This document shows, piece after piece, positions 3,358 through 21,117 of a stretch of DNA of 57,526 nucleotides (within the stretch, counting starts at the first letter, position 1; each line of letters opens with the position of its first letter). Made by a program: the position numbers and the translations under genes. Where the stretch lies: assembly GCA_030613505.1 (NCBI GenBank), contig JAUWLW010000016.1, positions 1-57,526 on the forward strand, written 5' to 3'. This DNA is from Candidatus Zixiibacteriota bacterium (GTDB lineage Bacteria; RBG-13-66-14; B26-G2; WVWN01). The notes under the pieces were generated by a model, which was given only the letters and a program-made list of their open reading frames with translations, was not told the origin of the DNA and searched no databases.

Positions 3358-3987
3358 ATGCGCAGCGTTTCTTTCTTGGCAATTCTCGCCATAATGACGA
3401 GCGCCGCGTTCGTAAACGCCGCAGAAGAAGTTCTCAACCCGGCTGCGGACTCGCCCTTATGGGAAGGGGCGGCAACCCGGAATTTCGGTAGCGCAACGTA
3501 CGGCTACTGGGGCTGGTACAACGGTTGCCAACGTACGCTCGTCAGATACGATTGCACGAAAATTTCCGGGAAGGTAACCGGCGCCAAACTTAGTTTCCAG
3601 TTTATGCGGAACGACTACGGCACCGGCAAAATGTGGGCGTGCAAGGTTACCGAGACGTGGGTAGAGTCTGTCGTAACGTGGAATACCCAGCCGAAACACG
3701 ACGACGCCGTCGCCAGCAGGCTCCTCGACATCGACTGGGTCTCCGGCCTCGGGCCGCACACCAAAGATTGCACCGCCGCGGCCGTAGCCATAATCCAGGG
3801 CTGGGTCGACACCCCGGCCACTAACTACGGCGTGATGTTGAAGAAAAACCCCGAGTCGGGCACCGTCCCGCGTTGCTACCCCTATATGAAGGAATCCTCC
3901 TCCCAGCCGGTGCGCCTTATCGTTACTTACACGCCTTCCGCGGTCGCGCCCGCCTCCCTCGGTAAAATCAAGACGCTGTTCAAATAA
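3358..3987 (+). CDS. Secreted DNRLRE/CBM96-like protein with SLGKIKTLFK tail
   Basis: 209 residues. Signal peptide 1-21 (cleavage after VNA|A). The mature domain has the pattern of DNRLRE/disaggregatase-type beta-sandwich modules: an early NFGSATYGYWG segment, R-x-L-V-R-YD (about 60-66), a KLSFQF strand, VTETWVESVVTWNTQP (about 97-112) and a final RLIVTYTP strand. Such modules occur in extracellular adhesins and polysaccharide-binding proteins. The last 15 residues, AVAPASLGKIKTLFK, are the tail shared with eight propeller proteins in this window. A perfect AAGGAGG site lies 6 bases before the ATG. A terminator follows at 4009. Localisation at the cell surface is inference. Confidence 0.8.
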   Translation: MRSVSFLAILAIMTSAAFVNAAEEVLNPAADSPLWEGAATRNFGSATYGYWGWYNGCQRTLVRYDCTKISGKVTGAKLSFQFMRNDYGTGKMWACKVTETWVESVVTWNTQPKHDDAVASRLLDIDWVSGLGPHTKDCTAAAVAIIQGWVDTPATNYGVMLKKNPESGTVPRCYPYMKESSSQPVRLIVTYTPSAVAPASLGKIKTLFK

Positions 3988-4008
3988 CGGGAACCGCTAA
4001 CCGGCGAG

Positions 4009-4032
4009 AAAAAGGGCCTTCGGGCCCTTTTT
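4009..4032 (+). terminator. Rho-independent terminator after the gene at 3358
   Basis: AAAAAGGGCC-TTCG-GGCCCTTTTT, a perfect stem closed by a stable TTCG tetraloop and ending in a T run. A second copy of this terminator is found at 5153 as part of a direct repeat. Confidence 0.9.
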
Positions 4033-4243
4033 CATTTACGCGCCGCAGGCCGCTCGAGCGCACCCCTTTTTTTTATAACCTTGCCAAGGCACCCGGCTCG
4101 GTTTATAATACCCGACGACCGTTATGACTTCCGAAGCTAAAAGCGCCGGCGCCCCTCCTCTCCTCCTGGCCTCTACGTCGCCGCGGCGACGCTTCCTCTT
4201 GCGGGAAGCCGGCATCGCCTTCGACGCCGTCCCGCCCCGACTT
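4009..4243 (+). repeat. Direct repeat, left copy (terminator + promoter + 5' end of maf)
   Basis: About 235 bases match 5153-5387 over their full length, with scattered substitutions (roughly nine of ten positions the same by eye). The repeat runs from the TTCG terminator through the spacer and the TTGCCA/TATAAT promoter into the first ~40 codons of maf. This copy is the broken one. The right copy carries the intact maf gene. Between the copies lies an AT-rich lipoprotein gene in the same orientation. Confidence 0.85.
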
Positions 4244-4279
4244 TTATTCCCGCACGCCAAGAACAACCTTCTCCCTTAA
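4124..4279 (+). pseudogene. Truncated 5' copy of maf
   Basis: Starts at an ATG 14 bases after a TTGCCA (4081-4086) / TATAAT (4104-4109) promoter with 17-base spacing, exactly as at the intact maf gene. The first ~40 codons parallel Maf (SEAKSAGAPPLLLASTSPRR, then RFLLREAGIAF), after which the frame runs into unrelated sequence and stops at 4277. It keeps the STSPRR phosphate-binding loop but lacks the catalytic GADT Asp, so it cannot be a working pyrophosphatase. The rest of 4280-4519 is AT-rich intergenic DNA in which I see no gene. Confidence 0.85.
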
Positions 4280-4519
4280 AACAAATATTTTACGACGTCG
4301 CGACCCGTGCGCCACAGCCCAAGCGTACGGGGCGCTTTTAAACTGCACACACTATTTTATATTTTGTTTCGTACTTAAAGACTGACAGGTTCCGTCAGGG
4401 GTTTATGTTATGAATATAGCGTAAAAATAAAAAAGGGGGTATGAATGACCTAATAAACGGGGATAGCTAACGCGCGATAAAAGTAATGAAAACCGATACT
4501 AAACAAAGAGAGAAAAGAA

Positions 4520-4921
4520 ATGTTACGAAAAACCCTAATTAGCTTAGCGGCTATAAGCTTCGGAATTGCGTTACTCGCGTGCCAGACTGACGTAACGGAA
4601 CCGAATTTCGCCCCCTCTTACGAAACAACCGACGACTTGGGAGCTATAAGGGGCTACGTTAAGCAAACTGACGGCGTGTACATATCTGGTGCTACGGTTA
4701 CTTGGTATGACGTAGTAAGCTTAGAGATCCTAGGAACCGACGATACCAACAACGGCGGTTTCTACATAATTAACGCAGAGCCATGGTGGGAAAATTACGA
4801 CGGAAATTTAATCGAGGGTATAGCCACACACCCCGAGTACCAAGACGCTTATAATCAAATCGGAAACTTTAACCACGGGTCCTGGTATTGGCGCGGCTTC
4901 GAAATGGAAGAAGCTAAATAA
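4520..4921 (+). CDS. Small lipoprotein with a carboxypeptidase-regulatory-like domain
   Basis: 133 residues. MLRK, a hydrophobic stretch, then the lipobox LLAC with Cys21 as the predicted lipidation site. From about 42 to 95 the pattern GAIRGYVKQ...VYISGATVTWYD......TDDTNNGGFYIINAEP fits a carboxypeptidase regulatory-like / CNA-B-type beta sandwich, commonly found on surface proteins. No enzyme motif. The ribosome site is weak (aaagagagaaaagaaATG). The gene is strongly AT-rich compared with maf and recG, and sits between two copies of a ~235 bp direct repeat, so it was probably inserted here. A terminator follows at 4941. Confidence 0.75.
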   Translation: MLRKTLISLAAISFGIALLACQTDVTEPNFAPSYETTDDLGAIRGYVKQTDGVYISGATVTWYDVVSLEILGTDDTNNGGFYIINAEPWWENYDGNLIEGIATHPEYQDAYNQIGNFNHGSWYWRGFEMEEAK

Positions 4922-4940
4922 ATAGGGCCGTACGGAAGTC

Positions 4941-4970
4941 AAACCCCGTCTTACTTAGGCGGGGTTTATT
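4941..4970 (+). terminator. Rho-independent terminator after the lipoprotein gene
   Basis: AAACCCCG/CGGGGTTT stem (4941-4948/4960-4967) followed by ATTTCG. It lies 20 bases after the lipoprotein stop codon. The remaining 4971-5152 is AT-rich with no gene seen. Confidence 0.75.
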
Positions 4971-5152
4971 TCGTCCTCGGTTATTAAAACTATCGAATTA
5001 AAAAATTGAGGAGCGTCAAAACCGACGTGTTAACTTGGGAGTTCAATAAACCTTATTAAAAACTTAATACTTTTCTAGAACCGCCTTGGGTGTCCGTTAC
5101 AAGTAAACTAACCGGTCTTTTTATTTAGATACGCCGGTAAATTCAAGGACCG

Positions 5153-5178
5153 ACAAAAGGGCCTTCGGGCCCTTTTGT
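5153..5178 (+). terminator. Orphan duplicate of the TTCG terminator
   Basis: ACAAAAGGGCC-TTCG-GGCCCTTTTGT. No gene ends just before it; it is the left end of the right-hand direct-repeat copy and marks where the duplicated segment begins. Confidence 0.8.
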
Positions 5179-5224
5179 TTTTACGCGCCGCAGCCCGCTC
5201 GAGCGCACCCCTTTTTTTATAACC

Positions 5225-5253
5225 TTGCCAAGGCACCCGGGCCGGTTTATAAT
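5225..5253 (+). promoter_or_regulatory. Promoter of maf-recG
   Basis: TTGCCA (5225-5230) and TATAAT (5248-5253) with a 17-base spacer. The maf ATG is at 5268, only 14 bases past the -10 box, so the predicted leader is 7-8 nt and has no room for a Shine-Dalgarno sequence. Confidence 0.8.
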
Positions 5254-5267
5254 ACCCGACGACCGTT

Positions 5268-5876
5268 ATGGTTTCCGAAGCTAAAAGCGCCGGCGCCCCT
5301 CCCCTCCTCCTGGCCTCCACGTCGCCGCGGCGCCGGTTCCTCTTGCGCGAGGCCGGCATCGCGTTCGCCGCCGTCGCGCCCCGCGACGTGGCCGAGGACT
5401 TCCCGCCGGGAGAGCCGGCCGAAGATCTCGTCGTCCGCCACGCGCTGGCGAAGGCGCGCTCCGTGGCGGCGGCCAACCGGGGCCGGCTGGTCCTGGGCGC
5501 CGACACCGTCGTCGTCCTCGACGAGCGCATCTTCGGCAAACCGGCCGACGAAGAGGAGGCGCGGGCGATGTTGGCCCAACTCGCCGGCCGAACCCACACC
5601 GTGTATACCGGCCTGGCTCTGGTCGACGGCCCGAGCGGGCGCGAGGCGGCCGAGGCCGAGGCCACCGCCGTCACGATGAGGCCGCTGGGCGACGAGGAGA
5701 TAAAGTACTACGTCGCCACCGGCGAGCCGCTGGACAAGGCCGGCGCGTACGCCGTCCAGGGGCGGGGGGCGCTGCTGGTGAAGCGCGTGGACGGCGACTA
5801 CTTCAACGTCGTCGGCCTGCCGCTCTACCGCCTCTCGAAGATGCTGGCGGCCTTAGGCTACGACGTGTTCCGGTGA
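5268..5876 (+). CDS. maf: Maf family nucleoside triphosphate pyrophosphatase
   Basis: 202 residues, full family length. The phosphate loop STSPRR (17-22), GADT (77-80) with catalytic Asp79, and GEPLDKAGAYAVQG (152-165) are all intact. Maf enzymes hydrolyse non-canonical or methylated NTPs (dTTP/UTP or m7GTP types) to the monophosphate and act as house-cleaning enzymes in the cytosol. The substrate subclass cannot be fixed by eye. It overlaps recG by four bases (GTGA), so the two are translationally coupled from the promoter at 5225. A broken copy of its 5' end is at 4124. Confidence 0.93.
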   Translation: MVSEAKSAGAPPLLLASTSPRRRFLLREAGIAFAAVAPRDVAEDFPPGEPAEDLVVRHALAKARSVAAANRGRLVLGADTVVVLDERIFGKPADEEEARAMLAQLAGRTHTVYTGLALVDGPSGREAAEAEATAVTMRPLGDEEIKYYVATGEPLDKAGAYAVQGRGALLVKRVDGDYFNVVGLPLYRLSKMLAALGYDVFR

Positions 5877-8230
5877 ACGAAAACGTCTCACAGATAATCG
5901 CGAAGATGCGACGGCCGACCGCGCTGGCGGTCGCTTTCGACTATTACGGCCTGGAGAAACTGCGCGGCGTCGAGCGTCGCATGCGGGAGTGGGCCGCGGA
6001 GGGTCGCGCGACCGCGGCTCGAGACGAGCACGTGCGGCGGCTCTTCGACCAACTCGCGTCGCTCTTCCCCGACGAACGACCGGACCTCCTGGCGGAGCGG
6101 CTGGAGCGCGCGTCGCGCCTGCTGGACGAAATGGAGCGGCCGCCCAAGCCGGCGGCGGTGCGCAAGAAAACGCTCGACGCCGACACCAACGTCCAATACC
6201 TCAAGGGCGTGGGCCCGGCGCGGGCGCGGGCGCTGGCCAACCTGGGCGTCACCACCGCCCGCGATTTGCTCCACCTCTTCCCCCGCGACTACGTCGACCG
6301 CTCGCGCGTCACGCCGCTGGGCGACGTCCGCGTCGGCGACGACGTCACGGTGGAGGGGACGGTGGGCGAAATAGTGCTGGAGCGCAAGCGCCGCGGCCGC
6401 ACGCTGGTCACGGCGTTGTTGTCCGACGACACGGGCGACATCCTGCTGAAGTGGTTCAACGCGCCGTACGTGGCAGACAAGGTGAAGGCCGACGACCGCG
6501 TCGTCGCCAGCGGCAAACTAAAATTCTACCAGGCGCCGGAGCTGGTGAACCCGGAGTTCGACGTCATAGGCCGCGGCGCCGACGCGGAGTCCTTCGGCGG
6601 CGTCATCCCGGTATACCCGCTCTCGGCGGGGCTGACGCAGCGCGCCCTCCGGCGAGCCACGCTCCAGGCGCTGGACGGCCTGGCCGACGAGCTGCCCGAG
6701 CCGCTGCCGCCGGCGGTACTGGCCCGCACCTCTTTCCCGCCGCTGGGCGAGGCGCTGCGACAAATCCACTACCCCGACGGCATGGACGAGCAGCGGCGCG
6801 CGCGAAGGCGCCTCAGCTTCGAGCACCTCTACCTCATGGAGTGCGGCCTGCTCCTCAAGAAGCGCCAGGGCCTCGCGCAAGCCGGCGTCCGCGTGCAGGG
6901 CGACGGCTCGCTCCGCGGCCGCCTCGAGCTGCCGTTCGAGCTCACCGGCGCCCAGCGAAAGGCGCTGGCCGCCATCGACGACGACCTCGCCGCGAGCTGG
7001 CCCATGCGCCGGCTGCTGCAGGGCGACGTAGGCTCCGGCAAGACGGTGGTGGCGCTGGAGGCGATGTTGGCCGCGGCGGAGGCCGGCTTCCAGGCCGCGC
7101 TCATGGCGCCCACCGAGATACTGGCGCGGCAGCACTGGTACACCGCCTCGGCGTTCCTGGCGCCCGCCGGCATCGCGTGCGAGCTGCTGGCGGCCACGAC
7201 GCCGGCGGCGGACCGCGAACGCATCCTCGCCGGCCTGGCCGACGGGACGCTGCAGCTCGTCGTGGGGACGCACGCGCTGTTGGAGGACGACGTGCGCTTC
7301 AAGAGTCTCGGCCTGGCCGTCGTCGACGAGCAGCACCGCTTCGGCGTCGGCCAGCGCCAGCGCCTCGCCGCCAAGGGTGCAAACCCCAACGTCCTCGTGA
7401 TGACGGCCACGCCCATACCGCGGACGCTCGCGCTCTGCGTCTACGGCGACCTGGAGCTAACCGTGATCGACGAGATGCCGGCCGGCCGCCCGGGCACGAC
7501 GACGACGGTGCTCGCCGAGAAACGCGTGAGCGAGGCGTTCGAGCTTTTGGGCCGGGAGGTGGCCGCCGGCCGCCAGGGCTTCGTCGTCTATCCGGTCATT
7601 GAGGAGTCGGAGGCGAACGCGCTCAAGGCCGCGACGGCGATGGCCGAAAAACTCGCCGACGAAGTATTCCCGGATTACCGGATAGGGCTGGTCCACGGCC
7701 GCCTGCCGGCGGACGAGCGCGAGGCCACGATGACGGCCTTCTGCGGCGGCGACGTGGACGTCCTGGTGGCGACGACGGTGGTGGAGGTGGGCCTGGACGT
7801 GCCCAATGCCACCGTGATGGTGGTGGAGCACGCCGACCGCTACGGCCTGTCGCAACTGCACCAGCTCCGCGGCCGCGTCGGCCGGGGCGAGCACGCCTCC
7901 CACTTCGTCGCCGTCGCGCCGGGGAAGGTAACGGCGGAGGCGAAGGCCCGGCTGAAGACGCTGGCGCGCACGTCGGACGGCTTCGAGATCGCCGAGGCGG
8001 ACCTGGCGATACGGGGCCCGGGCGAGCTGTTGGGGACGAGGCAGCACGGCCTGCCCGACTTCGCTTTACAGGCCCTGATTCACGACCGCGGTTTATTCGA
8101 GCTGGCGCGGGAGCTGGCGGCGGCCACGCTGGACGAGGACGAGCGGCTCGAGCGGCCGGAACATACAAACCTCCGCGAGCGCATCCGCGCCGACTTCGGC
8201 CGGCGGCTGCAGTTGGCGGGGGCGGTTTAA
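5873..8230 (+). CDS. recG: ATP-dependent DNA helicase RecG
   Basis: 785 residues. An N-terminal extension (about 1-105) precedes the helix-hairpin-helix-like VQYLKGVGPARARALANLGV region and the OB-fold wedge domain (about 140-240). Helicase motifs follow: Walker A GDVGSGKT (384-391), motif II DEQH (485-488), MTATPIPRT, and the motif VI region QLRGRVGRG (664-672). RecG reverses stalled forks and branch-migrates Holliday junctions. The GTG start overlaps the maf stop (GTGA). The extension before the wedge is typical of the longer RecG form. It converges on the minus-strand gene at 8314; hairpins at 8255-8316 lie between them. Confidence 0.95.
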   Translation: MNENVSQIIAKMRRPTALAVAFDYYGLEKLRGVERRMREWAAEGRATAARDEHVRRLFDQLASLFPDERPDLLAERLERASRLLDEMERPPKPAAVRKKTLDADTNVQYLKGVGPARARALANLGVTTARDLLHLFPRDYVDRSRVTPLGDVRVGDDVTVEGTVGEIVLERKRRGRTLVTALLSDDTGDILLKWFNAPYVADKVKADDRVVASGKLKFYQAPELVNPEFDVIGRGADAESFGGVIPVYPLSAGLTQRALRRATLQALDGLADELPEPLPPAVLARTSFPPLGEALRQIHYPDGMDEQRRARRRLSFEHLYLMECGLLLKKRQGLAQAGVRVQGDGSLRGRLELPFELTGAQRKALAAIDDDLAASWPMRRLLQGDVGSGKTVVALEAMLAAAEAGFQAALMAPTEILARQHWYTASAFLAPAGIACELLAATTPAADRERILAGLADGTLQLVVGTHALLEDDVRFKSLGLAVVDEQHRFGVGQRQRLAAKGANPNVLVMTATPIPRTLALCVYGDLELTVIDEMPAGRPGTTTTVLAEKRVSEAFELLGREVAAGRQGFVVYPVIEESEANALKAATAMAEKLADEVFPDYRIGLVHGRLPADEREATMTAFCGGDVDVLVATTVVEVGLDVPNATVMVVEHADRYGLSQLHQLRGRVGRGEHASHFVAVAPGKVTAEAKARLKTLARTSDGFEIAEADLAIRGPGELLGTRQHGLPDFALQALIHDRGLFELARELAAATLDEDERLERPEHTNLRERIRADFGRRLQLAGAV

Positions 8231-8254
8231 TCCCCGGAAATATAAATATGAAAC

Positions 8255-8316
8255 GGGCCGACCTGAAGGTCGGCCCGGCGCGGGGAACGGTAGGGGCGCA
8301 AGGCCTTGCGCCCCTA
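8255..8316. repeat. Bipartite hairpin repeat, copy 1
   Basis: Two inverted repeats in tandem: GGGCCGACCT-GA-AGGTCGGCCC (8255-8276) and a perfect 26-base palindrome TAGGGGCGCAAGG/CCTTGCGCCCCTA (8291-8316), joined by cggcgcggggaacgg. The same layout with the same linker core (cggggaac) recurs at 12826-12887. Here it sits between convergent genes and overlaps the stop codon of the gene at 8314, so it may also serve as a bidirectional terminator. Confidence 0.75.
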
Positions 8317-9114
8317 CTTAAACAACGCCTTCACGCGGCCGAGGGACACGGGTTCTACCGCCCCCCAGGGCGCCGGGCAATGGAGCATCCAAATGTAGTG
8401 GCTGCCGGTGGTCGTTCCCAACCAGAGGTAAGACCCGGTATAAGCAAAGGCGCGGGGATTGTCGGCCTGTATCCGGAACGAGCCGGCGACCGAGCCGTTG
8501 GTCCTAAAGGCGTAGACGTAGTCGCCCGTGCTCCCGGTCCAGACATACCGGTTCTGCAAGTCCCACGCCAGGTCGTAAATCGCGGGGGAGGGGGCGAACG
8601 AGGCGTAGATAGAGCCGTTCGTTAAGCTCTGGCGGTAGACGTACCGGGGCGAGGTATCGCTAGAGAGCATGTGGGTTGGGGCCCGGCCGCCGGCGCCGGT
8701 CGCCATAACGGCCAGGCCGCCGTACATGTCGTGGTTGGCCGGAATCGAGGCGTAGGCGCTGCCGGTGTTGAAATTGCACCGATATATACGATCGGTGGAG
8801 TAATTGCCCATCCAGAGGTAGCTTCCGGTGGGCAGGCCGCCGCCTCCGCCGTAACTATACGTGAGGCCGCGCGTGTACCTCCCCTGCGGCGAGACGAAGG
8901 AGGCGTAAACGGCCCCGTTCATCCCCCCCATCCGATAGATGCGGTACGGCGAGGTATCGCAGAAAACCCAAAGGTAATGATTGTAGTCGGCCCCAACCGC
9001 CAACGCGATCGGGTAATTCGCCGGCGCGGGGAAGGAGGCGACGACGTCGCCCATCTTGGCGAATGCCGCGCCGGCCGCCAATAGGGCAACTCCTAAAATT
9101 ATTAACCGTTTCAT
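8314..9114 (-). CDS. Secreted TGS-propeller protein with SLGRVKALFK tail (paralog A2)
   Basis: 266 residues. Signal peptide 1-19 (MKRLIILGV, cleavage after AFA). The mature protein is built from about five repeats of roughly 50 residues, each with a [TN]-G-S-x-x-x-SF core (for example NGSIYASFAPSP, NGSVAGSFRIQ) followed by a strand ending in LWxG or VWTG, the pattern of a beta propeller. No catalytic motif. It is close to the gene at 11938 (long identical runs such as the APSPAIYDLAWD segment) and more distantly related to 20338. It ends AVEPVSLGRVKALFK, the shared tail. TAGGAGG precedes the ATG. Function unknown; surface location inferred. Confidence 0.8.
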   Translation of the reverse strand: MKRLIILGVALLAAGAAFAKMGDVVASFPAPANYPIALAVGADYNHYLWVFCDTSPYRIYRMGGMNGAVYASFVSPQGRYTRGLTYSYGGGGGLPTGSYLWMGNYSTDRIYRCNFNTGSAYASIPANHDMYGGLAVMATGAGGRAPTHMLSSDTSPRYVYRQSLTNGSIYASFAPSPAIYDLAWDLQNRYVWTGSTGDYVYAFRTNGSVAGSFRIQADNPRAFAYTGSYLWLGTTTGSHYIWMLHCPAPWGAVEPVSLGRVKALFK

Positions 9115-9124
9115 TTTATCCCTC

Positions 9125-9175
9125 CTACCGGAACAACGCTTTCACGCGGCTCCGCGACTTCGGCGCCGCGTCCGC
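9125..9175 (-). pseudogene. Orphan C-terminal tail fragment
   Basis: Read on the minus strand, the 51 bases after the HD-GYP stop encode AADAAPKSRSRVKALFR and a stop, matching the tail of the propeller proteins at RVKALF and the upstream Pro/Ser positions. No signal peptide or domain precedes it; the frame is blocked by a stop at about 9176. Its TAG stop is part of the TAGGAGG ribosome site of the gene at 9114. Best read as the 3' remnant of a deleted family member. Confidence 0.65.
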
Positions 9176-9181
9176 CTAAAC

Positions 9182-10618
9182 CTATTCGAACAGGAAGCCC
9201 TTTTCGCGGAATAATATAAGGCAGGCGTCGACGGCGTCGGCGTCGTACCGGATGCCCCGATACCGCGTTATCTCCTCGAAACCCTTTCCCTCGCCCAGGT
9301 GGGGGCGGTACGGCCGGTGCGAGGACATGGCCTCGACCACGTCCGCGACGCACAAAATCCGCGCCTCGAGTAGAATATCGTCGGCGCGCAGGCCGGCCGG
9401 ATACCCGGAACCGTCCAGATGCTCGTGGTGCTGGAGGACGACCTCGGTCACGGGCCAGGGGAACTCGACGTTCTCCAGGATCTCGTAACCGACCCGGGCA
9501 TGGGTCTTAATAATATCCAACTCCATCTCGGTAAGTTGGCCCGGCTTGCTGAGTATCTCCGCCGGGATGGAGATCTTGCCGATGTCGTGCGCGGAGGCGG
9601 CCACGAAGATTCCCTCCACCCGGTCCTCGGACAGGCCCATCTCCCCGGCGATGGCCCGAGCCAGCGCGGCGACGCGCGATTGGTGGCCGGAGGTATAGGG
9701 ATCGCGTTCCTCGACGATTTTGGATATGGCCTTGATCGTGCCGTACAGGCTCTCCTGCAATCTTTCGTAAGCCCGCTTGCGCTCGGTAATGTCGCGGGGG
9801 ATGCCCTGGATAACCTTCTTACCCGCTATCTCGAACAAACTCGACGATACCTCGGCCGGGAAAACCGAGCCGTCCTTCTTTCGGAAATCGACCTCGAACC
9901 GGACGAACCCCTCTCGCGATATCCGGCGGAACGCCTCGTGGGAGGCCGCGAGCGCCTCCGGCGGATGGAGGTCCCCGACGGTGAGGGAGGCCATCTCCTC
10001 CCTGGTATATCCGAACAGGTCCGAGGCCTGCTCGTTGGAATCCAGTACGGCCCCCTCCAAATCGTGGATTATAATGGCGTCCCTGGAACGGTGGAACAGG
10101 TTGCTGTATTTCTCCTCCGATTCCCGCAACGCCTCCTCGGCGCGCTTCCGCTCGGTGACGTCGAGGAACATCGCCGCCATCTTCCCCGGCGACGTTTGGA
10201 AGGCGGTGACGTCGAAAGCGCCCTTGATTTGCTCGTATTCGTATACGATCTGTTCGGTATGCCAGAGCTCGCCTTGGGCGGCGGCGAGCCGGTACCGCTC
10301 CGGTACCTCGGTCCCGGCGAGAGGAGGAAACGCCTCCTCGAGCGTCTTCCCGATGAATTGCGAATTGTCGACGCCGAGAATCTCATCGGCCGCGCGGTTG
10401 GCGCCGATAAAAATAAGCCGTCCGTCCGGGGCCAGTTCGTACATGTGGATGCCCATCGGCGACGACTCGACGACGTTGCGGAATTTCTCCTCCGATTCCC
10501 CCGGTCCCTCCCCCGCCCGCCTGGCCGCGTCCGCCAAGATCTCCAACTCGCGGAGCCGGCCGCGCGCCGCGGCGAGTTCCTCGACAAGCTCCGCCTTGGT
10601 CTTCTTATCGTTCTTCAT
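9182..10618 (-). CDS. PAS-PAS-HD-GYP cyclic-di-GMP phosphodiesterase-type signalling protein
   Basis: 478 residues from the ATG at 10618. A charged coiled segment (1-45) is followed by two PAS domains (about 45-160 and 166-285, each ending in DVTERKR or DITERKR) and an HD-GYP domain with HDIGK (344-348), HHEHLDGSGYP (397-407) and DVVEAMSSHRPYRP. These ligands are those of active c-di-GMP hydrolases; the reaction itself is inferred from the family. No membrane segment, so a cytosolic sensor is likely. An upstream TTG at 10642 is in frame, but GAGGAAG sits 10 bases before the ATG at 10618, which I prefer. The first ~29 codons are duplicated at 11734-11823. Confidence 0.9.
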   Translation of the reverse strand: MKNDKKTKAELVEELAAARGRLRELEILADAARRAGEGPGESEEKFRNVVESSPMGIHMYELAPDGRLIFIGANRAADEILGVDNSQFIGKTLEEAFPPLAGTEVPERYRLAAAQGELWHTEQIVYEYEQIKGAFDVTAFQTSPGKMAAMFLDVTERKRAEEALRESEEKYSNLFHRSRDAIIIHDLEGAVLDSNEQASDLFGYTREEMASLTVGDLHPPEALAASHEAFRRISREGFVRFEVDFRKKDGSVFPAEVSSSLFEIAGKKVIQGIPRDITERKRAYERLQESLYGTIKAISKIVEERDPYTSGHQSRVAALARAIAGEMGLSEDRVEGIFVAASAHDIGKISIPAEILSKPGQLTEMELDIIKTHARVGYEILENVEFPWPVTEVVLQHHEHLDGSGYPAGLRADDILLEARILCVADVVEAMSSHRPYRPHLGEGKGFEEITRYRGIRYDADAVDACLILFREKGFLFE

Positions 10619-10760
10619 CGCCCGGACTTCCTCGGCGCCCAAACATCGCGAGAGCTACTTTATCATATAATCGCCCCCGCGTAAACAAAACGCTCGTCGC
10701 GACCACGCCGGCGTCGGCGGCACCGGCCTTCCTACCTGAACAACGCCTTCACGCGGCGGA
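10532..10760 (-). repeat. Direct repeat, copy attached to the intact HD-GYP gene
   Basis: About 229 bases match 11734-11964 at roughly nine of ten positions by eye. In minus-strand order the repeat covers the last codons of a tail-bearing gene, the intergenic spacer, and the first ~29 codons of the HD-GYP gene. Offset between copies is about 1.2 kb. Confidence 0.85.
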
Positions 10761-10761
10761 C
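10732..10761 (-). pseudogene. Orphan C-terminal tail fragment (RRVKALFR)
   Basis: The minus strand encodes RVRRVKALFR and a TAG stop. This is the 3' end of the propeller gene at 11938 carried into the second repeat copy; nothing coding for a propeller precedes it. Together with the fragment at 9125 it shows that tail-encoding DNA has been copied and left behind at least twice. Confidence 0.75.
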
Positions 10762-10782
10762 GCGGCGCCGCCTTACCGAACC

Positions 10783-11007: not shown

Positions 11008-11038
11008 AGGCGCGTATAAAGCGGGGGGGGCAGTAAAA

Positions 11039-11680: not shown

Positions 11681-11715
11681 TTCGGCCTCCGAAGAAAAGT
11701 AATCGTGGAAAAGTA

Positions 11716-11823: not shown

Positions 11824-11964
11824 CGCCCGGACTTCCTCGGCGCCCAAATATCACAAGAGCTACTTTATCATACAATCGCCCCCGCGTAAAACAAAACGTT
11901 CGGCGCGACCACGCCGACGTCGGCGGCGCCGGCCTTCCTACCTGAACAACGCCTTCACGCGGCC
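11734..11964 (-). repeat. Direct repeat, copy attached to the intact propeller gene
   Basis: Partner of 10532-10760. In this copy the upstream propeller gene is intact and the HD-GYP gene is truncated; in the other copy the reverse holds. Confidence 0.85.
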
Positions 11965-12747
11965 GACCGAGGACGGTTCTATCGCATTCCACTGAAAAGG
12001 ACAATGGATCATCCATATACGGTGACTACCGGTCGTAGTCCCTACCCAAAGGTATTGGCTCGTGTACGCGAACGCGCGGGGATTGTTGGCCGGTATCGGG
12101 AACGAGCCGACGACCGAGCCCGTGGTCCGGTGTAGGGCGTAAACGCGGTTGCCGGCGTTGCCGGTCCAGATTACGTAATTCCGCCAGTCCCACGCCAGGT
12201 CGTAAATCGCGGGGGAGGGGGCGAAGGAGGCGTAAATAGAACCGTTCGTCAAGCTCTGACGGTAGATGTACCGGGGCGAGGTGTCGCTGGAAAACATATA
12301 CGACGGTTTACCGCCGCCGTCGATGAGCGCCATAACGGCCAGGCCACCGTACATGTCGTGGTTCGCGGGAATCGAGGCGTGGACGCTGCCGTTGTTGTAA
12401 TGACACCGGTAAATGCGATCTGTGGAGTAATTACCCATCCAAAGGTAGCTCCCGGTCGGCAGGCCGCCGCCGCCGCCCCAGCTATATGTGAGGCCCCGCG
12501 TGTACCTCCCCTGCGGCGAGACGAAGGACGAGAAAACGGAACCCGTTCTCCCCGCCACCCTATAAACGCGGTAAGGGGAAGTATTGCAGAAAACCCAGAG
12601 GTAAGAAGCGTAATTACCGTGGACCGCCAAGGCTATAGGGTAATTCGCCGGCGCCGGGAACGAGGCTACGACGTCGCCGATCCGGGCGAAGGCCGCGCCG
12701 GCCGAAAGGACCAACAACGCAACTATAAAAATTATTAACCGTTTCAT
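11938..12747 (-). CDS. Secreted TGS-propeller protein with SVGRVKALFR tail (paralog A1)
   Basis: 269 residues, signal peptide 1-21 (MKRLIIFIVALLVLSAGAAFA). It is closely similar to the gene at 8314 along its whole length. Repeat cores include TGSVFSSFVSPQG, NGSVHASIPANH, NGSIYASFAPSP and TGSVVGSFPIPA at intervals of about 50 residues, consistent with a five- to six-bladed propeller. The end AIEPSSVGRVKALFR carries the shared tail with Arg at the last position. GAGGAGGTAGAG precedes the ATG. Its 3' end is inside a direct repeat. No enzyme motif; ligand unknown. Confidence 0.8.
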   Translation of the reverse strand: MKRLIIFIVALLVLSAGAAFARIGDVVASFPAPANYPIALAVHGNYASYLWVFCNTSPYRVYRVAGRTGSVFSSFVSPQGRYTRGLTYSWGGGGGLPTGSYLWMGNYSTDRIYRCHYNNGSVHASIPANHDMYGGLAVMALIDGGGKPSYMFSSDTSPRYIYRQSLTNGSIYASFAPSPAIYDLAWDWRNYVIWTGNAGNRVYALHRTTGSVVGSFPIPANNPRAFAYTSQYLWVGTTTGSHRIWMIHCPFQWNAIEPSSVGRVKALFR

Positions 12748-12825
12748 CTCTACCTCCTCGAACCCCTTTGAATATTACCTCTTACTCTCTATTATAGCAA
12801 ACTATTTTATAAAATTCAAAAAAAC

Positions 12826-12887: not shown

Positions 12888-12911
12888 CAGACGGCACGAA
12901 CGCCAAAGAAC

Positions 12912-13169: not shown

Positions 13170-13229
13170 AGCGAGGACCTCCATTAGTTGAAGTTAAGAA
13201 TGCGGTTCGACCCCTATATACGGTCACGC

Positions 13230-14660: not shown

Positions 14661-14887
14661 TAGATCCATACTCCCGTAATTAGACCCACCAACGACAACA
14701 CCACGTGTACGAAGGCGAACAACGTCGCCAGCGACAACGTCAGGTTGTGGTACTTCTTCAAATAACGTGAAATAGGCCGGAGGCGGTAGGCCCAGTGTTC
14801 GTTGCAGGATGGCAGGTGCAGCAGAATAAATATGCCGGCGACGAACGCCGTCCAGAAGCCGATATCCTTTCCCAGGATATGTACCAT
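14660..14887 (-). CDS. Small two-helix His-containing membrane protein
   Basis: 75 residues. Two hydrophobic segments (about 11-26 and 50-73) are linked by a basic loop (YRLRPISRYLKKYHN). His at 24, 30, 47 and 61 and one Cys in PSCNEHW. Paired His near membrane faces recall small cytochrome b or ferric-reductase-like helices, but two helices are too few to assign. It is translationally coupled (TAATG) to the rubredoxin/FMN protein, which suggests it docks that redox enzyme at the membrane. That is inference. Confidence 0.6.
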   Translation of the reverse strand: MVHILGKDIGFWTAFVAGIFILLHLPSCNEHWAYRLRPISRYLKKYHNLTLSLATLFAFVHVVLSLVGLITGVWI

Positions 14888-14982
14888 TTTCTTTACCCCG
14901 TCAGGCCGTTAGTTGAACGACGCCAGACCCGGCATAAATTACTATTTCAGTAAGCTTATGTCAAATAAAAAAGGCGAGCCGG

Positions 14983-15513
14983 CTATTTAAAGGCCACGAG
15001 CTCCTCGAACCACGGCTCTTCGCGGTACCGGTCGAAGTCGGCGTCGATGGCGGCGGCGCTATTCAGGCCCGGGTCGAGCTCGAGGGCGCGCCGCAGCTCG
15101 CGCTCGCAATCGTCGCGCCTGCCCATATGCGCCCAGAAGCAGGCGTAGTTGAAGTGGACCAGCGCGTCGTCGGGGCCGAGCTTGGTCGCCAACTCGTAAT
15201 CGGCGTTGGCGTCGTCCCGGCGGCCTAGGTTGCGGAAGACGGCGCCGCGCATAGTATAGATGACGGCGTAAGAGGGGTCGCGGCCTATGGCGTCGTCGCA
15301 TACCTGCAGCGCCTCGTCGAAGCGCGCCAGAACCGTCAGCGCGTTGGCCTTGCCGGCGTATGGCCGGATGAAGGCCTCGTCGGCCGCAATCGCCTCCTCG
15401 AACGCGGCCAGCGCCTCCTCGTACTTGCGGACGTTGAAGAGCTGGCGGCCGCGCTCGAAGTGCATCTCCGCGTGGAGCCTATCTCCCGATTTTCCCTCTT
15501 GGCACGCGTCCAT
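14983..15513 (-). CDS. TPR-repeat protein
   Basis: 176 residues made of about four tetratricopeptide repeats from residue 16 on: HFERGRQLFNVRKYEEALAA, then repeats with A-x-A-L-x-x-L-x-R-x-DEAL, RGAVFRNLGRRDDA and NYACFWAHMGRRDDCERELR, each with the small residues at TPR positions 8 and 20. No signal peptide, so cytosolic. TPR folds hold protein partners; the partner is not evident. It follows the four NHL genes on the same strand after a short gap. Confidence 0.8.
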   Translation of the reverse strand: MDACQEGKSGDRLHAEMHFERGRQLFNVRKYEEALAAFEEAIAADEAFIRPYAGKANALTVLARFDEALQVCDDAIGRDPSYAVIYTMRGAVFRNLGRRDDANADYELATKLGPDDALVHFNYACFWAHMGRRDDCERELRRALELDPGLNSAAAIDADFDRYREEPWFEELVAFK

Positions 15514-15576
15514 ACGCTTTTCCCGGGTTATCCGCCGCTCGCCGCCACCTCCAATTATTCTCGGGCGGCGGCGCCC

Positions 15577-16557
15577 CTATTTAAACAACGCCTTTACGCG
15601 GCCCAGCGTCGTCGGGACGACCGGCGGGTCGGCCCAACGAAAATACTGAACCCGGTCGTTACCGGTGTCCGCGACGTAGGCCAGCGCGCCATCCGACGCG
15701 ACGGCTACGCCCCCGGGCGATTTAAACTCGCCGTCGCGGCTCCCTCGCGAGCCCCATTTCCCTAAAAAGGACCCCGCGGCGCCGAAGTATTGGATGCGGC
15801 AGTTGCCGGCGTCGGCGACGTAGACCTGGTTCTTATCCCCCAGGAAATCTATGCCTAACGGTACTATAAACCGGCCGTCCTCGGAACCGTATCGACCCCA
15901 TCCGCCGCGATACGCGCCGGTGGCCGTAAAGACCTGTACGCGGTGGTTTCCGCATTCGACGACGTAGACGTCGCCGCCCGGCGCCGTCGCCACGTCGACG
16001 GGGTTTTCGAATTCGCCGTTTCCCGATCCCAAGGAACCCCACGCGTCGAGGAACTCGCCGCGCGAGGTGAAGTATTGGACGCGATGGTTTCCGCAGTCAG
16101 CGACGTACACGTCGCCGTTCGGCGCGACGCCTACGCCCGTCGGGCCGTTGAAAAAGCCCTTGTCCTTGCCCCGCGAACCCCACTTGCGTAGAAACGACCC
16201 GGCGGCCGTAAAATATTGTACGCGGTGATTCTGCGTATCGGCGACGTACACCCTCCCGCCGCGACCGATAACTACGTCACCCGGCCACCGGAATTGGCCG
16301 TCGTCGGAACCGTACACGCCCCACCTGCCCAGGGTCGAGCCGGTGGGCGTGAAGTAATGGATGTAGTGGTTGTCGCGGTCGGCGACGTAAACGTTGCCGT
16401 TCGGCGCGACCGCCACGCCGACGGGGTAGTCGAAAAACGGCAGCGGCGGCCTGTGCACGCCTGGCGAGCCCCACGAACCTCCGTAGATCCATTCCGCCGA
16501 GACTCCGGCGGCCGCTAAGACGATTACGCCGACCGCGAATGTCGGTACACGTTTCGT
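15577..16557 (-). CDS. Secreted NHL-repeat beta-propeller protein with tail; apparent ACG start
   Basis: 326 residues if read from 16557. Six NHL repeats of about 47 residues, each with G-N-x-Y-V-A-D-x-x-N-H-R-x-Q-Y-F then G-S-F-L-x-K-W-G-S-x-G, end in PVVPTTLGRVKALFK. The first canonical start in frame is a GTG at 16458, which would remove the signal peptide and half a repeat. Upstream in frame is GGAGGAGAAGCG-ACG-AAACGT followed by a good signal sequence (VPTFAVGVIVLAAAGVSA). Paralogs begin ATGAAACG at this spot, so the start ATG seems changed to ACG. It may be initiated at ACG or be a fresh null allele. NHL propellers usually bind proteins or sugars. Confidence 0.75.
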   Translation of the reverse strand, partial: TKRVPTFAVGVIVLAAAGVSAEWIYGGSWGSPGVHRPPLPFFDYPVGVAVAPNGNVYVADRDNHYIHYFTPTGSTLGRWGVYGSDDGQFRWPGDVVIGRGGRVYVADTQNHRVQYFTAAGSFLRKWGSRGKDKGFFNGPTGVGVAPNGDVYVADCGNHRVQYFTSRGEFLDAWGSLGSGNGEFENPVDVATAPGGDVYVVECGNHRVQVFTATGAYRGGWGRYGSEDGRFIVPLGIDFLGDKNQVYVADAGNCRIQYFGAAGSFLGKWGSRGSRDGEFKSPGGVAVASDGALAYVADTGNDRVQYFRWADPPVVPTTLGRVKALFK

Positions 16558-16584
16558 CGCTTCTCCTCCGTTAACGCCCCCGCG

Positions 16585-17523
16585 TTATTTAAACAACGCC
16601 TTAACGCGGCCCAGCGAGGCGGGCGCGACCGCCGGGTCGGACCAGCGGAAATATTGTACGCGGTGGTTGCCGGTGTCGACGACGTACACCCGCTCGCCGC
16701 CCGGGCTGACGTCGACGTCGGCGGGGGACCGAAACTGCCCCCGGCGCGAGCCGCTCGAGCCCCACTTGCCGAGAAAAGAACCGCCCTTGGTGAAGTACTG
16801 GATGCGGTCGTTGCCGGAATCGGCCACGAACACCACCGCGCGGTTCTTGGGGAGGGCCACCCCCGTGGGATACCTGAATTGGCCGTCGCCCGAGCCGCGC
16901 GTCCCCCACTTGCCGACGAAGGTCCCGTCCGACTTGAAGTACTGGACGCGGTGGTTGGCCGAATCGGCGACGTAGACGTTGCCCAAGGGGGCCGCGGCTA
17001 TGCCCTCCGGGCCGTTGAAGAAACCTTCGCCGGACCCGTACGAGCCCCACTTGCCGAGGAAGGAACCGGTCATAGTGAAATACTGAACCCTGCGGTTCAA
17101 TCGGTCGATTACGAAAACGACGTAGTACCGCGATACGGCCACGTCGTAAGGGTAGCAGAATAGGCCGTTGCCGCGGCCGAACGAACCCCAAGAAAGACGG
17201 CCGCGGTAGCTCGAATATACTATGCGGTGATTTAACGTATCCGCTACGTATAAGTAGCCGTCGGGCGCTATGGCAATGCCCCTGGGGTTCTTTAAATCAA
17301 ACCGAAACTTCCCGATAAAGGAGCCGTTCGCCTTAAAATGGCATACCCGGTCGTTACCGCTGTCGGCCACGTATACGTCGCCGTCGGGCGCGACGGCCAC
17401 GCCGTACGGCGAATCGAATTGACGTTCGCCCGAGCCGTACGAGCCCCACCCGCCTTCGTAGACCCATTCGCCCCACGCCGCGCAGGCCGCGAGCGCCGCG
17501 AGTAAAAAAACGACCCGTTTCAT
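16585..17523 (-). CDS. Secreted NHL-repeat beta-propeller protein with SLGRVKALFK tail
   Basis: 312 residues. Signal peptide 1-18 (MKRVVFLLAALAACAAWG). Six NHL repeats, each carrying VYVADSGN-HRVQYF or close variants and separated by W-G-S-x-G-S-G-x-G-x-F turns. It ends AVAPASLGRVKALFK. The ATG overlaps the stop of the upstream paralog by four bases (ATGA), so the NHL genes are one translationally coupled unit. No catalytic residues are visible. Repeat number and spacing match a six-bladed propeller of the NHL type, as in PAL or Brat-like structures, which bind ligands rather than catalyse in most cases. Confidence 0.85.
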   Translation of the reverse strand: MKRVVFLLAALAACAAWGEWVYEGGWGSYGSGERQFDSPYGVAVAPDGDVYVADSGNDRVCHFKANGSFIGKFRFDLKNPRGIAIAPDGYLYVADTLNHRIVYSSYRGRLSWGSFGRGNGLFCYPYDVAVSRYYVVFVIDRLNRRVQYFTMTGSFLGKWGSYGSGEGFFNGPEGIAAAPLGNVYVADSANHRVQYFKSDGTFVGKWGTRGSGDGQFRYPTGVALPKNRAVVFVADSGNDRIQYFTKGGSFLGKWGSSGSRRGQFRSPADVDVSPGGERVYVVDTGNHRVQYFRWSDPAVAPASLGRVKALFK

Positions 17524-18506
17524 TTAAACAACGCCTTTACGCGGCCCAGGGAGGCTGGCGCTACCGCCGGCGCCGACCACCGGAAATACTGGACGCGATA
17601 GTTACGCCGGTCTACGACGTAGACTCGAGCCGGCGGCAGCGACACGCCGACGCCGGAGGGGAGGTTGAATTGGCCGTTCCCGCCGCCGTACGAGCCCCAC
17701 TTCCCGAGAAAGGAACCGCCTCGCGTGAAGTACTGAATGCGGTCGTTGCCGGCGTCGGCGACGAAGACGCACGAGCGGCTACTTTCGACGACTACGGCCG
17801 AAGGCAATTTGAACTCGCCGGCGCCCGCGCCGAACGAACCCCAAGCGCCGAGGAACGACCCGCCCGAGGTGAAGTACTGTACGCGGTGATTCCCGGCGTC
17901 GGCCACGTAAACGCGGCCGTCGGAAGCGACGGCGACGTCGAGCGGATTGTTGAATTGGCCTTCGCCCGACCCCAGGCCGCCCCAAGCGCCTAAAAACGAG
18001 CCGCCCAACGTAAAGCGCTGGATGCGGTGGTTCCCCGCGTCGGCGACGTAGACGCGGCGGCTTGGGCTCACGTCTATACCCGCGGGCCCGTTAAACTTCC
18101 CGGCCTCCGAACCCCGCGACCCCCACTTCCCGAGGAACGAGCCGACCAAGGTGAAGTATTGGACGCGGTGGTTGTAGTAATCGGTGACGTAGACGTTGAG
18201 GTTGGGGGCGGCGGCTAAGCCGCGGGGCCAGCGAAACCCGCCTTTACCCGTTCCAAACGTACCCCACTTACCGATGAAACTGCCGTAGCGAGAAAAATAC
18301 TGTACGCGATGGCTGTCGCGGTCTACTACGTAAACGTAATCCTTAGGCGTTACGATTACCGAGACCGGGTCCCAGAACTCGCCCGGGCCCGAGCCGTAGG
18401 AGCCCCATTGGCCCTCGTACATGTGGCCCTCGTACATGTGGCCGGTTAAGGCGCCGACCGTTGACGCCGTCGAAGCCCCGATTACGGCGATAGCGATTAG
18501 CTTCAT
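17520..18506 (-). CDS. Secreted NHL-repeat beta-propeller protein with SLGRVKALFK tail
   Basis: 328 residues from the ATG at 18506, which follows GGGGGAT; a GTG at 18533 would place nine charged residues before the signal peptide and is less likely. Signal peptide about 1-19 (MKLIAIAVIGASTASTVGA). Next comes a five-residue tandem duplication, GHMYE-GHMYE, from two copies of a 15-base unit (18411-18425 and 18426-18440). Six NHL repeats follow with VYVADAGNHRxQYF cores, then AVAPASLGRVKALFK. It overlaps the next gene by ATGA and begins just after the previous one stops. Confidence 0.85.
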   Translation of the reverse strand: MKLIAIAVIGASTASTVGALTGHMYEGHMYEGQWGSYGSGPGEFWDPVSVIVTPKDYVYVVDRDSHRVQYFSRYGSFIGKWGTFGTGKGGFRWPRGLAAAPNLNVYVTDYYNHRVQYFTLVGSFLGKWGSRGSEAGKFNGPAGIDVSPSRRVYVADAGNHRIQRFTLGGSFLGAWGGLGSGEGQFNNPLDVAVASDGRVYVADAGNHRVQYFTSGGSFLGAWGSFGAGAGEFKLPSAVVVESSRSCVFVADAGNDRIQYFTRGGSFLGKWGSYGGGNGQFNLPSGVGVSLPPARVYVVDRRNYRVQYFRWSAPAVAPASLGRVKALFK

Positions 18507-18532
18507 ACGCCTATCCCCCGCCCTATGCGCCA

Positions 18533-19498
18533 CTACTTAAACAACGCCTTTACGCGGCCCAGCGAGGCGGGCGCGACGGCGGGCTCCCCCTTGCCGAAAT
18601 ATTGTATGCGGTGGTTGCCGGTATCGGCGACGTAAACCCAGCGGCCCGCCCCGTCAACGGCTACCCCCGCGGGTAGATCGAATTGGCCGGCGCCTTTCCC
18701 GTACGAGCCGAACGCGCCCAGGAAAATGCCTGCGGGGCCGAAGTACTGCACCCGATCGTTGCCGGCGTCGGCGACGAAGACGCGGCGTTCGGCCGGCGAG
18801 ACCGTCACGGCGGAGGGTACCTTGAAGTAACCCTCGCCCGCGCCGTACGAACCCCACTTGCCGAGAAACGAACCGCTCGAGGTGAAATATTGGATGCGGT
18901 GATTTCCGCCGTCGGCGACGTACACCGTCCCGCCGGTTACGGCCACGTCCATCGGGTTATTGAATTCGCCGTTTCCCGAGCCCGGGCCGCCCCATGCACG
19001 GCTAAAGGACCCGGAGGCGGTGAACTCCTGACAGCGATGGTTGTGGGAATCCGTAACGTAAACGCTATGGCCCGACGAGATTGCTACACCTACCGGGTAT
19101 CGAAACTGCCCTTCCCCCGTGCCGAAAGTCCCCCATTTCCCGAGGAAAGAACCTGTCGAGGTGAAGTATTGGACGCGATGATTGAAGTGATCGACGACAT
19201 AAACGTTGCCTCCCGGCGCTATCGTCAACCCGGTTGGCCACCTGAATTGACCGTCCCCCGTGCCGGGCTCCCCCCATGCGCCGAGTTGCCAACCGTCGAA
19301 CGTGAAGTATTGTACGCGGTGGTTATCCCGGTCGGCAACGTATACGTCGCCCGTAGGGGCGACCGCTGCGCCCGCGGGGTGGTCGAAATAGCCGTCGCCG
19401 GTACCGCGCCTACCCCACTGCCCCTCATAGACGTACGTAGTCGCGGCTACGCTCGCCGCTACGGTTAGGTACGCCGTTATTACAATCCAGACCTTCAT
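18533..19498 (-). CDS. Secreted NHL-repeat beta-propeller protein with SLGRVKALFK tail
   Basis: 321 residues. Signal peptide 1-19 (MKVWIVITAYLTVAASVAA). Six NHL repeats beginning YEGQWGRRGTGDG, with cores such as VYVADRDNHRVQYF, VYVVDHFNHRVQYF and VYVTDSHNHRCQEF. Ends AVAPASLGRVKALFK. Upstream neighbour ends 13 bases before the ATG. The four NHL paralogs align end to end without gaps in the repeats, so they arose by gene-level tandem duplication, while the tail and signal peptide stayed fixed. Confidence 0.85.
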   Translation of the reverse strand: MKVWIVITAYLTVAASVAATTYVYEGQWGRRGTGDGYFDHPAGAAVAPTGDVYVADRDNHRVQYFTFDGWQLGAWGEPGTGDGQFRWPTGLTIAPGGNVYVVDHFNHRVQYFTSTGSFLGKWGTFGTGEGQFRYPVGVAISSGHSVYVTDSHNHRCQEFTASGSFSRAWGGPGSGNGEFNNPMDVAVTGGTVYVADGGNHRIQYFTSSGSFLGKWGSYGAGEGYFKVPSAVTVSPAERRVFVADAGNDRVQYFGPAGIFLGAFGSYGKGAGQFDLPAGVAVDGAGRWVYVADTGNHRIQYFGKGEPAVAPASLGRVKALFK

Positions 19499-19511
19499 CT
19501 TGCCACCCGGC

Positions 19512-20327
19512 CTACTTAAATAGAGCTTTTATCCGCCCCACCGACGCCGGCGCCACGGCCGTATTGCCGCCGATATCGATCTGGTATACCCAAACCTCCC
19601 GCCAGAGGTGCCAAAAAGTGCACCACAGCGTAGTCCCGTACGAGGGCGGGTATCCCGGACCGCATACGTTACACATAGGCAATTCATAATGACCCGGCGC
19701 CGGGAAAGTGGCTACGAGGGAACCGGAAGGCGCGTATACGTGCACAGGTTTAAATTGCGGCTCGTAGGGAAACATCAAGACGAATTCACCTGACACGCCC
19801 TCGTACACAGGCGCTACCGCTATCGACTTGGGCCATTCGTCTGTCCACGTCTTAAACGAACTCACGAAACTTCCGTTCGTCGTATAACGATAAATATACT
19901 CCCTCTTACCCACGTAAAAGTAAGGACTTCCGGGCGAATGGCCGTACGCCGTAGTCAGGCCACCCGAGTGCCAAGACGCCGCGAGCGAACCTGTACTTAC
20001 CGTATAATGGAGAATGTACTCCTCGCCGGCCCGGACGCCGAAATATCCCCCGCCCCGGGGCGAATGGTCAGCGTCGCACGCGTCCGCAAGACCATACAGC
20101 GGCCTCTTCCCGTACGGCGTCCCGGCAGGCGTGAAGCGGTACAAATAAAAAATAAGTCCCACGCGAAAGATCGTATAAACGTAATGCGCGTCGCGGTACA
20201 CGCCGCCGCCATCCACGATCTGCGCCTCGAACGCGAGAAACGAATTTATTACCGACCCGGCGCCGCGGGCGCCGGCCGCGGCAAAGGCCGCACACACCGT
20301 TATCGTTACCGGTATACCCCTCCTCAC
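19512..20327 (-). CDS. Secreted propeller-like protein with SVGRIKALFK tail
   Basis: 271 residues. GTG start with TAGGAGG 6 bases upstream. Signal peptide 1-22 (ending GARGAG). Repeats are looser than in its neighbours but keep the T-x-G-S-x-x-x-SF core (TGSLAASWHSGG, NGSFVSSFKTW, SGSLVATFPAPG) and aromatic strand ends, so it is probably a divergent member of the TGS-propeller group. It ends AVAPASVGRIKALFK. Cys appear near CNVCGPG and CTFW; a disulfide is possible. Ligand unknown. Confidence 0.75.
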   Translation of the reverse strand: MRRGIPVTITVCAAFAAAGARGAGSVINSFLAFEAQIVDGGGVYRDAHYVYTIFRVGLIFYLYRFTPAGTPYGKRPLYGLADACDADHSPRGGGYFGVRAGEEYILHYTVSTGSLAASWHSGGLTTAYGHSPGSPYFYVGKREYIYRYTTNGSFVSSFKTWTDEWPKSIAVAPVYEGVSGEFVLMFPYEPQFKPVHVYAPSGSLVATFPAPGHYELPMCNVCGPGYPPSYGTTLWCTFWHLWREVWVYQIDIGGNTAVAPASVGRIKALFK

Positions 20328-20337
20328 GAATTACCTC

Positions 20338-21117
20338 CTATTTGAACAGCGCCTTCACGCGGCCCAGCGAAGCGGGCGCCACGCCGACCGTATTCGGACA
20401 ATGGACCTGGTACACGTAATACGGAGAGGAGTTCGTCCCGACCCACAAATATTGGCCGTAGTAGCACATGCCCTGGGGGTTGACGGCCGGGGAGCGGAAG
20501 GACGCCGCAACCGCACCCCCGGTCGTGCATCCGTATACGTAGTTGACGTTCGCGTCCCCTCCCCACACGAGGTTGTTCCGCCAGTCCCAGGCGAGGTCGC
20601 CGTAGAGGGCGGGAGAATAGGTAAAGGAGGATATGATGCTGCCGTTGCTCGTCCGGTGGCGCCAGGTGGTCGTCGCGACGGCGTTTACTAATATGCCGTC
20701 CTGGTTTACGCCGCCGTCGCCGCGCGCCTTCAGCGCCAGGCCCGAGGTGCCGTGGTTCGCCGCCCAGGAGTACAGCACGCTCCCGCTGGCGGCCCGGCAC
20801 CGGTATACGCGCCGGTTGTTGAAGTTGCCGACCCACAGGTAGCCCGGGTCCTCGTACGTTAATCCCCGCGTATATTCGCCGCAGTACGAGACGAACGAAC
20901 TATACACGGAGCCGCTCGTGTGGTGGACCAGGAAGATCCGCCAGCCGCTCGTATTTTGGTTGCAGAACAGCCACATTTGCGTGGCGTTGTTGGCGTGGGC
21001 CAACGCGATCGGGGCGCGATAAGGCGAGGCGAAAGATGCGACGACGTCGCCCAAACCGGCGAACGCCGCGCCGGCCGTCACGACCCCGATAAAACCGGAC
21101 AATAGTACTTTTTTCAC
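20338..21117 (-). CDS. Secreted TGS-propeller protein with SLGRVKALFK tail (paralog A3)
   Basis: 259 residues. GTG start with GGAAGGGAA upstream. Signal peptide 1-20 (MKKVLLSGFIGVVTAGAAFA). It shares with 8314 and 11938 the start of the mature part (GDVVASF......PIALA), the blade cores TSGSVYSSFVSYCGEYTRGL and NGSIISSFTYSPALYGDLAW, and the tail GVAPASLGRVKALFK, but is otherwise clearly diverged. It is the first gene of the six-gene minus-strand run of tail proteins 21117-15577. No enzyme motif. Confidence 0.8.
   Translation of the reverse strand: MKKVLLSGFIGVVTAGAAFAGLGDVVASFASPYRAPIALAHANNATQMWLFCNQNTSGWRIFLVHHTSGSVYSSFVSYCGEYTRGLTYEDPGYLWVGNFNNRRVYRCRAASGSVLYSWAANHGTSGLALKARGDGGVNQDGILVNAVATTTWRHRTSNGSIISSFTYSPALYGDLAWDWRNNLVWGGDANVNYVYGCTTGGAVAASFRSPAVNPQGMCYYGQYLWVGTNSSPYYVYQVHCPNTVGVAPASLGRVKALFK

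Follow-up and report, generated by a model that had tools for sequence, protein, structure and literature searches.

Why do nine exported proteins with different bodies, encoded within a single stretch of DNA, end in the same short peptide? The stretch in question, hereafter the window, is the whole of the 57,526 nucleotides that were analyzed. An earlier note on this DNA had proposed that the shared tail is a portable signal, preceded in all nine cases by a signal peptide and present on no other protein in the window. All nine tails were indeed found in the window sequence at their genes, each of them in frame and forming the very C-terminus of its protein (Table 1). There is also a tenth copy, SPPSLGRVKSLFY followed by a stop codon, which ends at position 3300 of the forward strand just upstream of the DNRLRE gene. 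It lies on an orphan fragment, probably all that is left of a tail gene that was deleted.

The signal peptides required one correction. Gene 15577, as listed from its GTG codon, does not have one. Its frame continues upstream to an ACG codon at about position 16557 (16555-16557, reverse strand), which is preceded by GGAGGAG, and the product starting there begins with TKRVPTFAVGVIVLAAAGVSA and does have a signal peptide. Judging from the sequence, it appears that either an ATG has changed to ACG or the assembly is wrong at this point. The start of gene 17520 is more likely the internal ATG at position 18506. Six of the tail genes (15577-21117, reverse strand) lie head to tail with short or overlapping junctions, and this run is a tandem expansion of propellers. 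As many of the window copies belong to one propeller superfamily, their local abundance overstates their independence. A comparison of the nine proteins with NCBIfam and Pfam gave matches to body domains only and no model on the tail; for the protein at 8314..9114 neither collection gave a confident match.

Table 1. Tail-carrying genes of the window and the position of each terminal peptide.
Feature	Position	Strand	Basis
Exported DNRLRE/CBM96-domain protein with tail	3358..3987	+	NF033679 7.4e-17, PF24517 2.2e-8
Tail VAPASLGKIKTLFK and stop, DNRLRE gene	3943..3987	+	
Exported propeller-like (TGS-type) protein with tail	8314..9114	-	ORF and signal peptide
Tail VEPVSLGRVKALFK and stop, gene 8314	8314..8358	-	
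Exported propeller-like protein with tail	11938..12747	-	
Tail IEPSSVGRVKALFR and stop, gene 11938	11938..11982	-	
NHL propeller with tail, apparent ACG start	15577..16557	-	PF01436 1.2e-46; upstream frame
Tail VVPTTLGRVKALFK and stop, gene 15577	15577..15621	-	
NHL propeller with tail	16585..17523	-	PF01436 8e-36
Tail VAPASLGRVKALFK and stop, gene 16585	16585..16629	-	
NHL propeller with tail, ATG start	17520..18506	-	PF01436 2.7e-39
Tail VAPASLGRVKALFK and stop, gene 17520	17520..17564	-	
NHL propeller with tail	18533..19498	-	PF01436 4.4e-45; AlphaFold model
Tail VAPASLGRVKALFK and stop, gene 18533	18533..18577	-	
Exported protein with tail, no family assigned (Pfam and NCBIfam searched)	19512..20327	-	
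Tail VAPASVGRIKALFK and stop, gene 19512	19512..19556	-	
Exported propeller-like protein with tail	20338..21117	-	
Tail VAPASLGRVKALFK and stop, gene 20338	20338..20382	-	
Orphan fragment of 25 residues (NRLEAAVRGQASPPSLGRVKSLFY) bearing the tenth tail, no start codon	3223..3300	+	

In the host genome (2.86 Mb in 100 contigs), a strict codon pattern gave 44 matches and a relaxed pattern of tail plus stop codon gave 115, with the reversed control giving 0 in both searches. The relaxed pattern matched 112 and 140 times in two further members of the genus and 30 times in a genome of the same order. The window lies in the phylum Coatesbacteria: genomes from its genus and order match CP070633 (bin961) and CP070755 (bin3), which are both labelled Candidatus Coatesbacteria, and genome G004 belongs to the same genus. 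Isolate A-C077 (L084, L087, L096 and other WVWN01 records), which is labelled Candidatus Zixiibacteriota, agrees with G004 site for site, and on these sequences its GenBank name looks wrong.

Every Coatesbacteria genus searched carries the tail. In the genomes of one Coatesbacteria family (f5), a pattern ending in L-[FY]-[KR]-stop gave only 0-6 matches because the f5 tails end in LE, LD, GF and the like; a core pattern lacking the stop codon gave 26-51 matches in each of them and 0 in the control. All 20 Eisenbacteria genomes have the tail, with 16-67 matches each (control 0-1). In the 60 Zixibacteria genomes the counts were close to those of the control, apart from a single conserved protein, ~140 residues long, that ends in TTWGKIKALFK. 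The core pattern had 0 matches in the one planctomycete genome searched, and the strict pattern found isolated single matches, consistent with chance, in genome contigs of other phyla. The expectation that relatives would have many matches per genome is borne out by dozens to >100 in Coatesbacteria and Eisenbacteria, these counts coming from incomplete MAGs and missing degenerate tails.

The general form of the tail is V-x-[P/E/D]-x-[ST]-[L/W/F]-G-x-[IV]-K-[AS] with another 1-3 residues behind it, ~14 residues in all. It occurs in several dialects, namely SLGRVKALF[KR], SWGxIKA[LM]YR and SWGxIKA(LE/GF/DFE), with SWGxIKALE, SWGxIKAGF and SFGCIKALYR as the endings found in f5. According to the position table, S/T at -9, V/I at -13 and, in 53/53 Eisenbacteria tails, W at -8 are conserved without being forced by the pattern. 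The terminal residue of the Coatesbacteria and Eisenbacteria tails is mostly R or K, in a tally where the pattern permitted K, R, N, S, H and Q. The earlier description of the tail as cationic is not general, as f5 has tails ending in E, D, GF or TF. Its description as amphipathic was not supported, the helical signal being no higher than when the positions were permuted (p 0.29 at 100 degrees). The codons at conserved positions vary synonymously (Leu at -2 is encoded by TTG, CTG, CTC, CTT, CTA and TTA), which shows that selection acts on the peptide and that the tail is not a copied DNA element. When the stop-free pattern was applied to 30 loci, nearly all core matches were 8-11 residues before the stop codon, the four exceptions resembling non-coding frames. 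The tail is thus confined to C-termini.

An AlphaFold prediction for the NHL protein at 18533-19498, made with 28 relatives, gave a pLDDT of 95-99 for the propeller body and 42-50 for the tail. Low confidence was confined to the signal peptide and the tail, which was modelled as a detached helix (residues 313-320). In this model the tail is outside the fold of the body. The most fitting description of it is that of a short linear motif that is exposed.

The bodies that carry this motif are diverse. Single-linkage clustering of blastp matches sorted 225 tail proteins into 52 body families, with one propeller cluster accounting for roughly half of the tail proteins. Pfam and NCBIfam identify right-handed beta-helix, CBM96/DNRLRE, NHL, PD40, other propeller, MAM, choice-of-anchor J and V, GDSL lipase, plastocyanin, pectate lyase and lamin tail domains. 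One body is a MYXO-CTERM-anchored family (NCBIfam). Choice-of-anchor and MYXO-CTERM-anchored domains owe their names to the different C-terminal anchors with which they are found. A crude script called a signal peptide in 260 of the 304 tail ORFs (86%) and in 213 of 657 non-tail control ORFs (32%), which supports export of the tail proteins and, together with the range of folds, upholds the notion of unrelated bodies behind signal peptides. A lipobox-like Cys follows the signal peptide in only 6/204 tail proteins, which does not mark them as lipoproteins. Among the matches listed for 91 tail proteins (Pfam at E 0.01, 25 of 26 families listed; NCBIfam at E 0.05, 24 of 24 listed) there was no T9SS CTD or CTERM signal model and, in Pfam, no beta-barrel family. 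No model of either collection covers the tail, although both may lack unpublished models.

The relation of the tail to the body is seen best in the DNRLRE family of window gene 3358, which we followed across 22 genomes of Coatesbacteria and Eisenbacteria. Nearly all intact members from Coatesbacteria terminate in one of the tail dialects, mostly 13-15 residues past the domain; the clear exceptions, L266 and L267, are two-domain orthologues of 450 residues. The Eisenbacteria members have either the tail (L260, L271) or a T9SS-type CTD (L257, L262). In 33 Zixibacteria genomes, the tail is present in 0/30 loci: the proteins end in a T9SS CTD (L363, L390) or a dockerin-like region (L381, L383, L391), stop right after the domain (L364, L384, L387, L388) or end in other sequence. 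Choice-of-anchor J bodies carry the tail on short proteins (L283, L299, L300, L305) and a T9SS CTD on long ones (L286, L290, L293, L294, L296). Hence, the tail is not a part of these domains. As a separate observation, the f5 DNRLRE genes L277, L278, L315, L316 and L323 contain an in-frame TGA (PHGxYPYxLxPxGG-TGA-...GLVEFDL) at the same position in several paralogues and genomes, and reading continues to a normal tail; a putative recoding event such as selenocysteine insertion is possible.

The many bodies, the terminal position, the signal peptides and the alternation of tail and CTD all support the portable-signal reading. The tail probably acts as a portable C-terminal signal by which Coatesbacteria and Eisenbacteria sort or dock their envelope proteins, and it resembles an address label for cell-envelope proteins of a kind that has not been described before. 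The exchange with CTDs and the choice-of-anchor bodies argue for its equivalence to a sorting signal, and we infer that it functions in sorting, anchoring or processing. A tail protein would cross the inner membrane by Sec, lose its signal peptide and fold; its flexible C-terminal peptide would then be bound by a dedicated envelope receptor, which would route the protein to, or hold it at, the outer membrane or the cell surface. The tail would serve mainly small proteins, in parallel with the T9SS CTD as the alternative on large ones. As the core starts so close to the end of the chain, a receptor might bind the tail with no processing, or the entire tail might be cut off near V-x-P.

How does such a signal compare with those already described? 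The T9SS type A CTD (PF18962, TIGR04183) is likewise C-terminal, is found on Sec-exported proteins of unrelated folds and occurs in the same genomes and body families. However, it is an Ig-like domain of ~75 residues or more with KRMVVVR-like end strands, and neither of its models is among the families listed for the 91 tail proteins. Most of the tail-bearing genomes examined do encode the T9SS translocon. PEP-CTERM was recognized by the same portable C-terminal signal logic (PMC1569441). The PEP-CTERM/exosortase proteins resemble the tail proteins in their dozens of copies per genome, their signal peptides and their diverse bodies, and the tail has a loosely similar V-x-P-x-S-L ahead of its core, but it matches no PEP-CTERM model, and the position table for the last 18 residues contains no PEP motif, transmembrane helix or basic cluster. 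LPXTG, GlyGly-CTERM and MYXO-CTERM are also portable C-terminal signals that share some bodies with the tail (choice-of-anchor, MXAN_6652). The tail differs from them in that it lacks a hydrophobic helix as well as any LPXTG, GlyGly or Cys motif; the position table shows no sortase-type combination of LPXTG and helix, and the protein ends ~2-6 residues after the invariant Lys. These differences agree with the contrast that the earlier note drew with LPXTG, PEP-CTERM and T9SS type A signals. The terminal aromatic residue of outer-membrane beta-barrel signals is not a feature of the tail, which ends mostly in R/K or, in f5, in E, D or F. Encapsulin cargo-loading peptides are short C-terminal docking peptides on diverse proteins, as is the tail, but encapsulin cargo is cytoplasmic. 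Cargo loading of this kind was rejected on account of the signal peptides of the tail proteins.

The machinery that reads the tail may belong to an undescribed post-Sec pathway of Coatesbacteria and Eisenbacteria. This pathway would have its own receptor for a soluble C-terminal peptide of ~14 residues that has neither a membrane helix nor a CTD, and it would handle tens to >100 proteins per genome in parallel to T9SS. We put this forward tentatively, at somewhat below an even chance. It is rather doubtful that the tail is instead a minimal T9SS signal, read in place of the CTD by the SprA translocon or a PorV/PorP-like shuttle so that T9SS secretes the proteins. In favor of this explanation, T9SS CTD proteins were found in 14/14 Coatesbacteria searched and SprA (SprA_N) in 11/14 Coatesbacteria and 17/20 Eisenbacteria, and tail and CTD swap on the same bodies. 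Furthermore, the last 22 residues of a P. gingivalis CTD suffice for secretion, with the motif E lysines needed (PMC10202324), a precedent that leaves room for a T9SS role. On the other hand, the tail is unlike CTD ends such as KRMVVVR in sequence, and five genomes with tails, three from Eisenbacteria and two single-contig ones from Coatesbacteria, gave no SprA_N match, which incompleteness or divergence may explain. SprA is present in 12/12 Zixibacteria tested, yet the tail is on one protein only there. A T9SS role is thus possible, but T9SS is not sufficient, and as the sole explanation it was rejected. In the open-licence literature we found no paper on T9SS in Coatesbacteria or Eisenbacteria.

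The specific transporter or protease expected to co-occur with the tail was not found. T9SS, the only secretion system examined across the genomes (the phylogenetic profile was limited to its parts), does co-occur, but is not specific to tail genomes. Gene neighborhoods of the tail genes contain no recurrent dedicated neighbor or candidate enzyme; they do contain a large cluster of T9SS-CTD proteins, partly through the choice of loci. The Zixibacteria tail protein (L083, L099, L109, L110, L206, L209) lies in a conserved order of rex, tail protein, STAS, RsbW-like kinase and SpoIIE-like phosphatase, the neighbors being named from their sequences and not by a family search. No sorting enzyme is found beside it, only Rex and partner-switch regulators.

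It is unlikely that the tail is an assembly peptide, docking many exported proteins onto one scaffold such as a surface layer or an extracellular or periplasmic complex. A short and flexible C-terminus on bodies that differ in structure and mostly serve in binding or adhesion would suit such a role, and sequence alone hardly separates a docking signal from an anchoring one; however, no scaffold has been identified, and the cargo of microcompartments, like that of encapsulins, is cytoplasmic. It is very improbable that the tail marks proteins for a periplasmic protease or quality-control factor and so determines how long they last. The extreme C-terminal position and the conservation of the last residues within each dialect speak for such a tag, but the tail is on >100 proteins per genome, including those with choice-of-anchor bodies, and its core stays the same although the last residues (R, K, E, F) change from dialect to dialect. 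Finally, there is next to no chance that the tail goes back to the descent of a single propeller family or to a copied DNA repeat adding it by accident, as, despite the large propeller cluster, the 52 body families in two phyla, the DNRLRE proteins with or without the tail by lineage, the synonymous codons and the same core in different dialects across phyla already contradict it.

In the absence of a model for such an abundant C-terminal signal, a large share of the surface proteome in two uncultured phyla is unrecognizable today. A tail profile would at once predict tens to >100 envelope proteins per genome. The receptor, once found, would point either to a new pathway of sorting or to a T9SS that can read peptides much shorter than the CTDs known so far, and the latter outcome would bear on how T9SS reads different signals.
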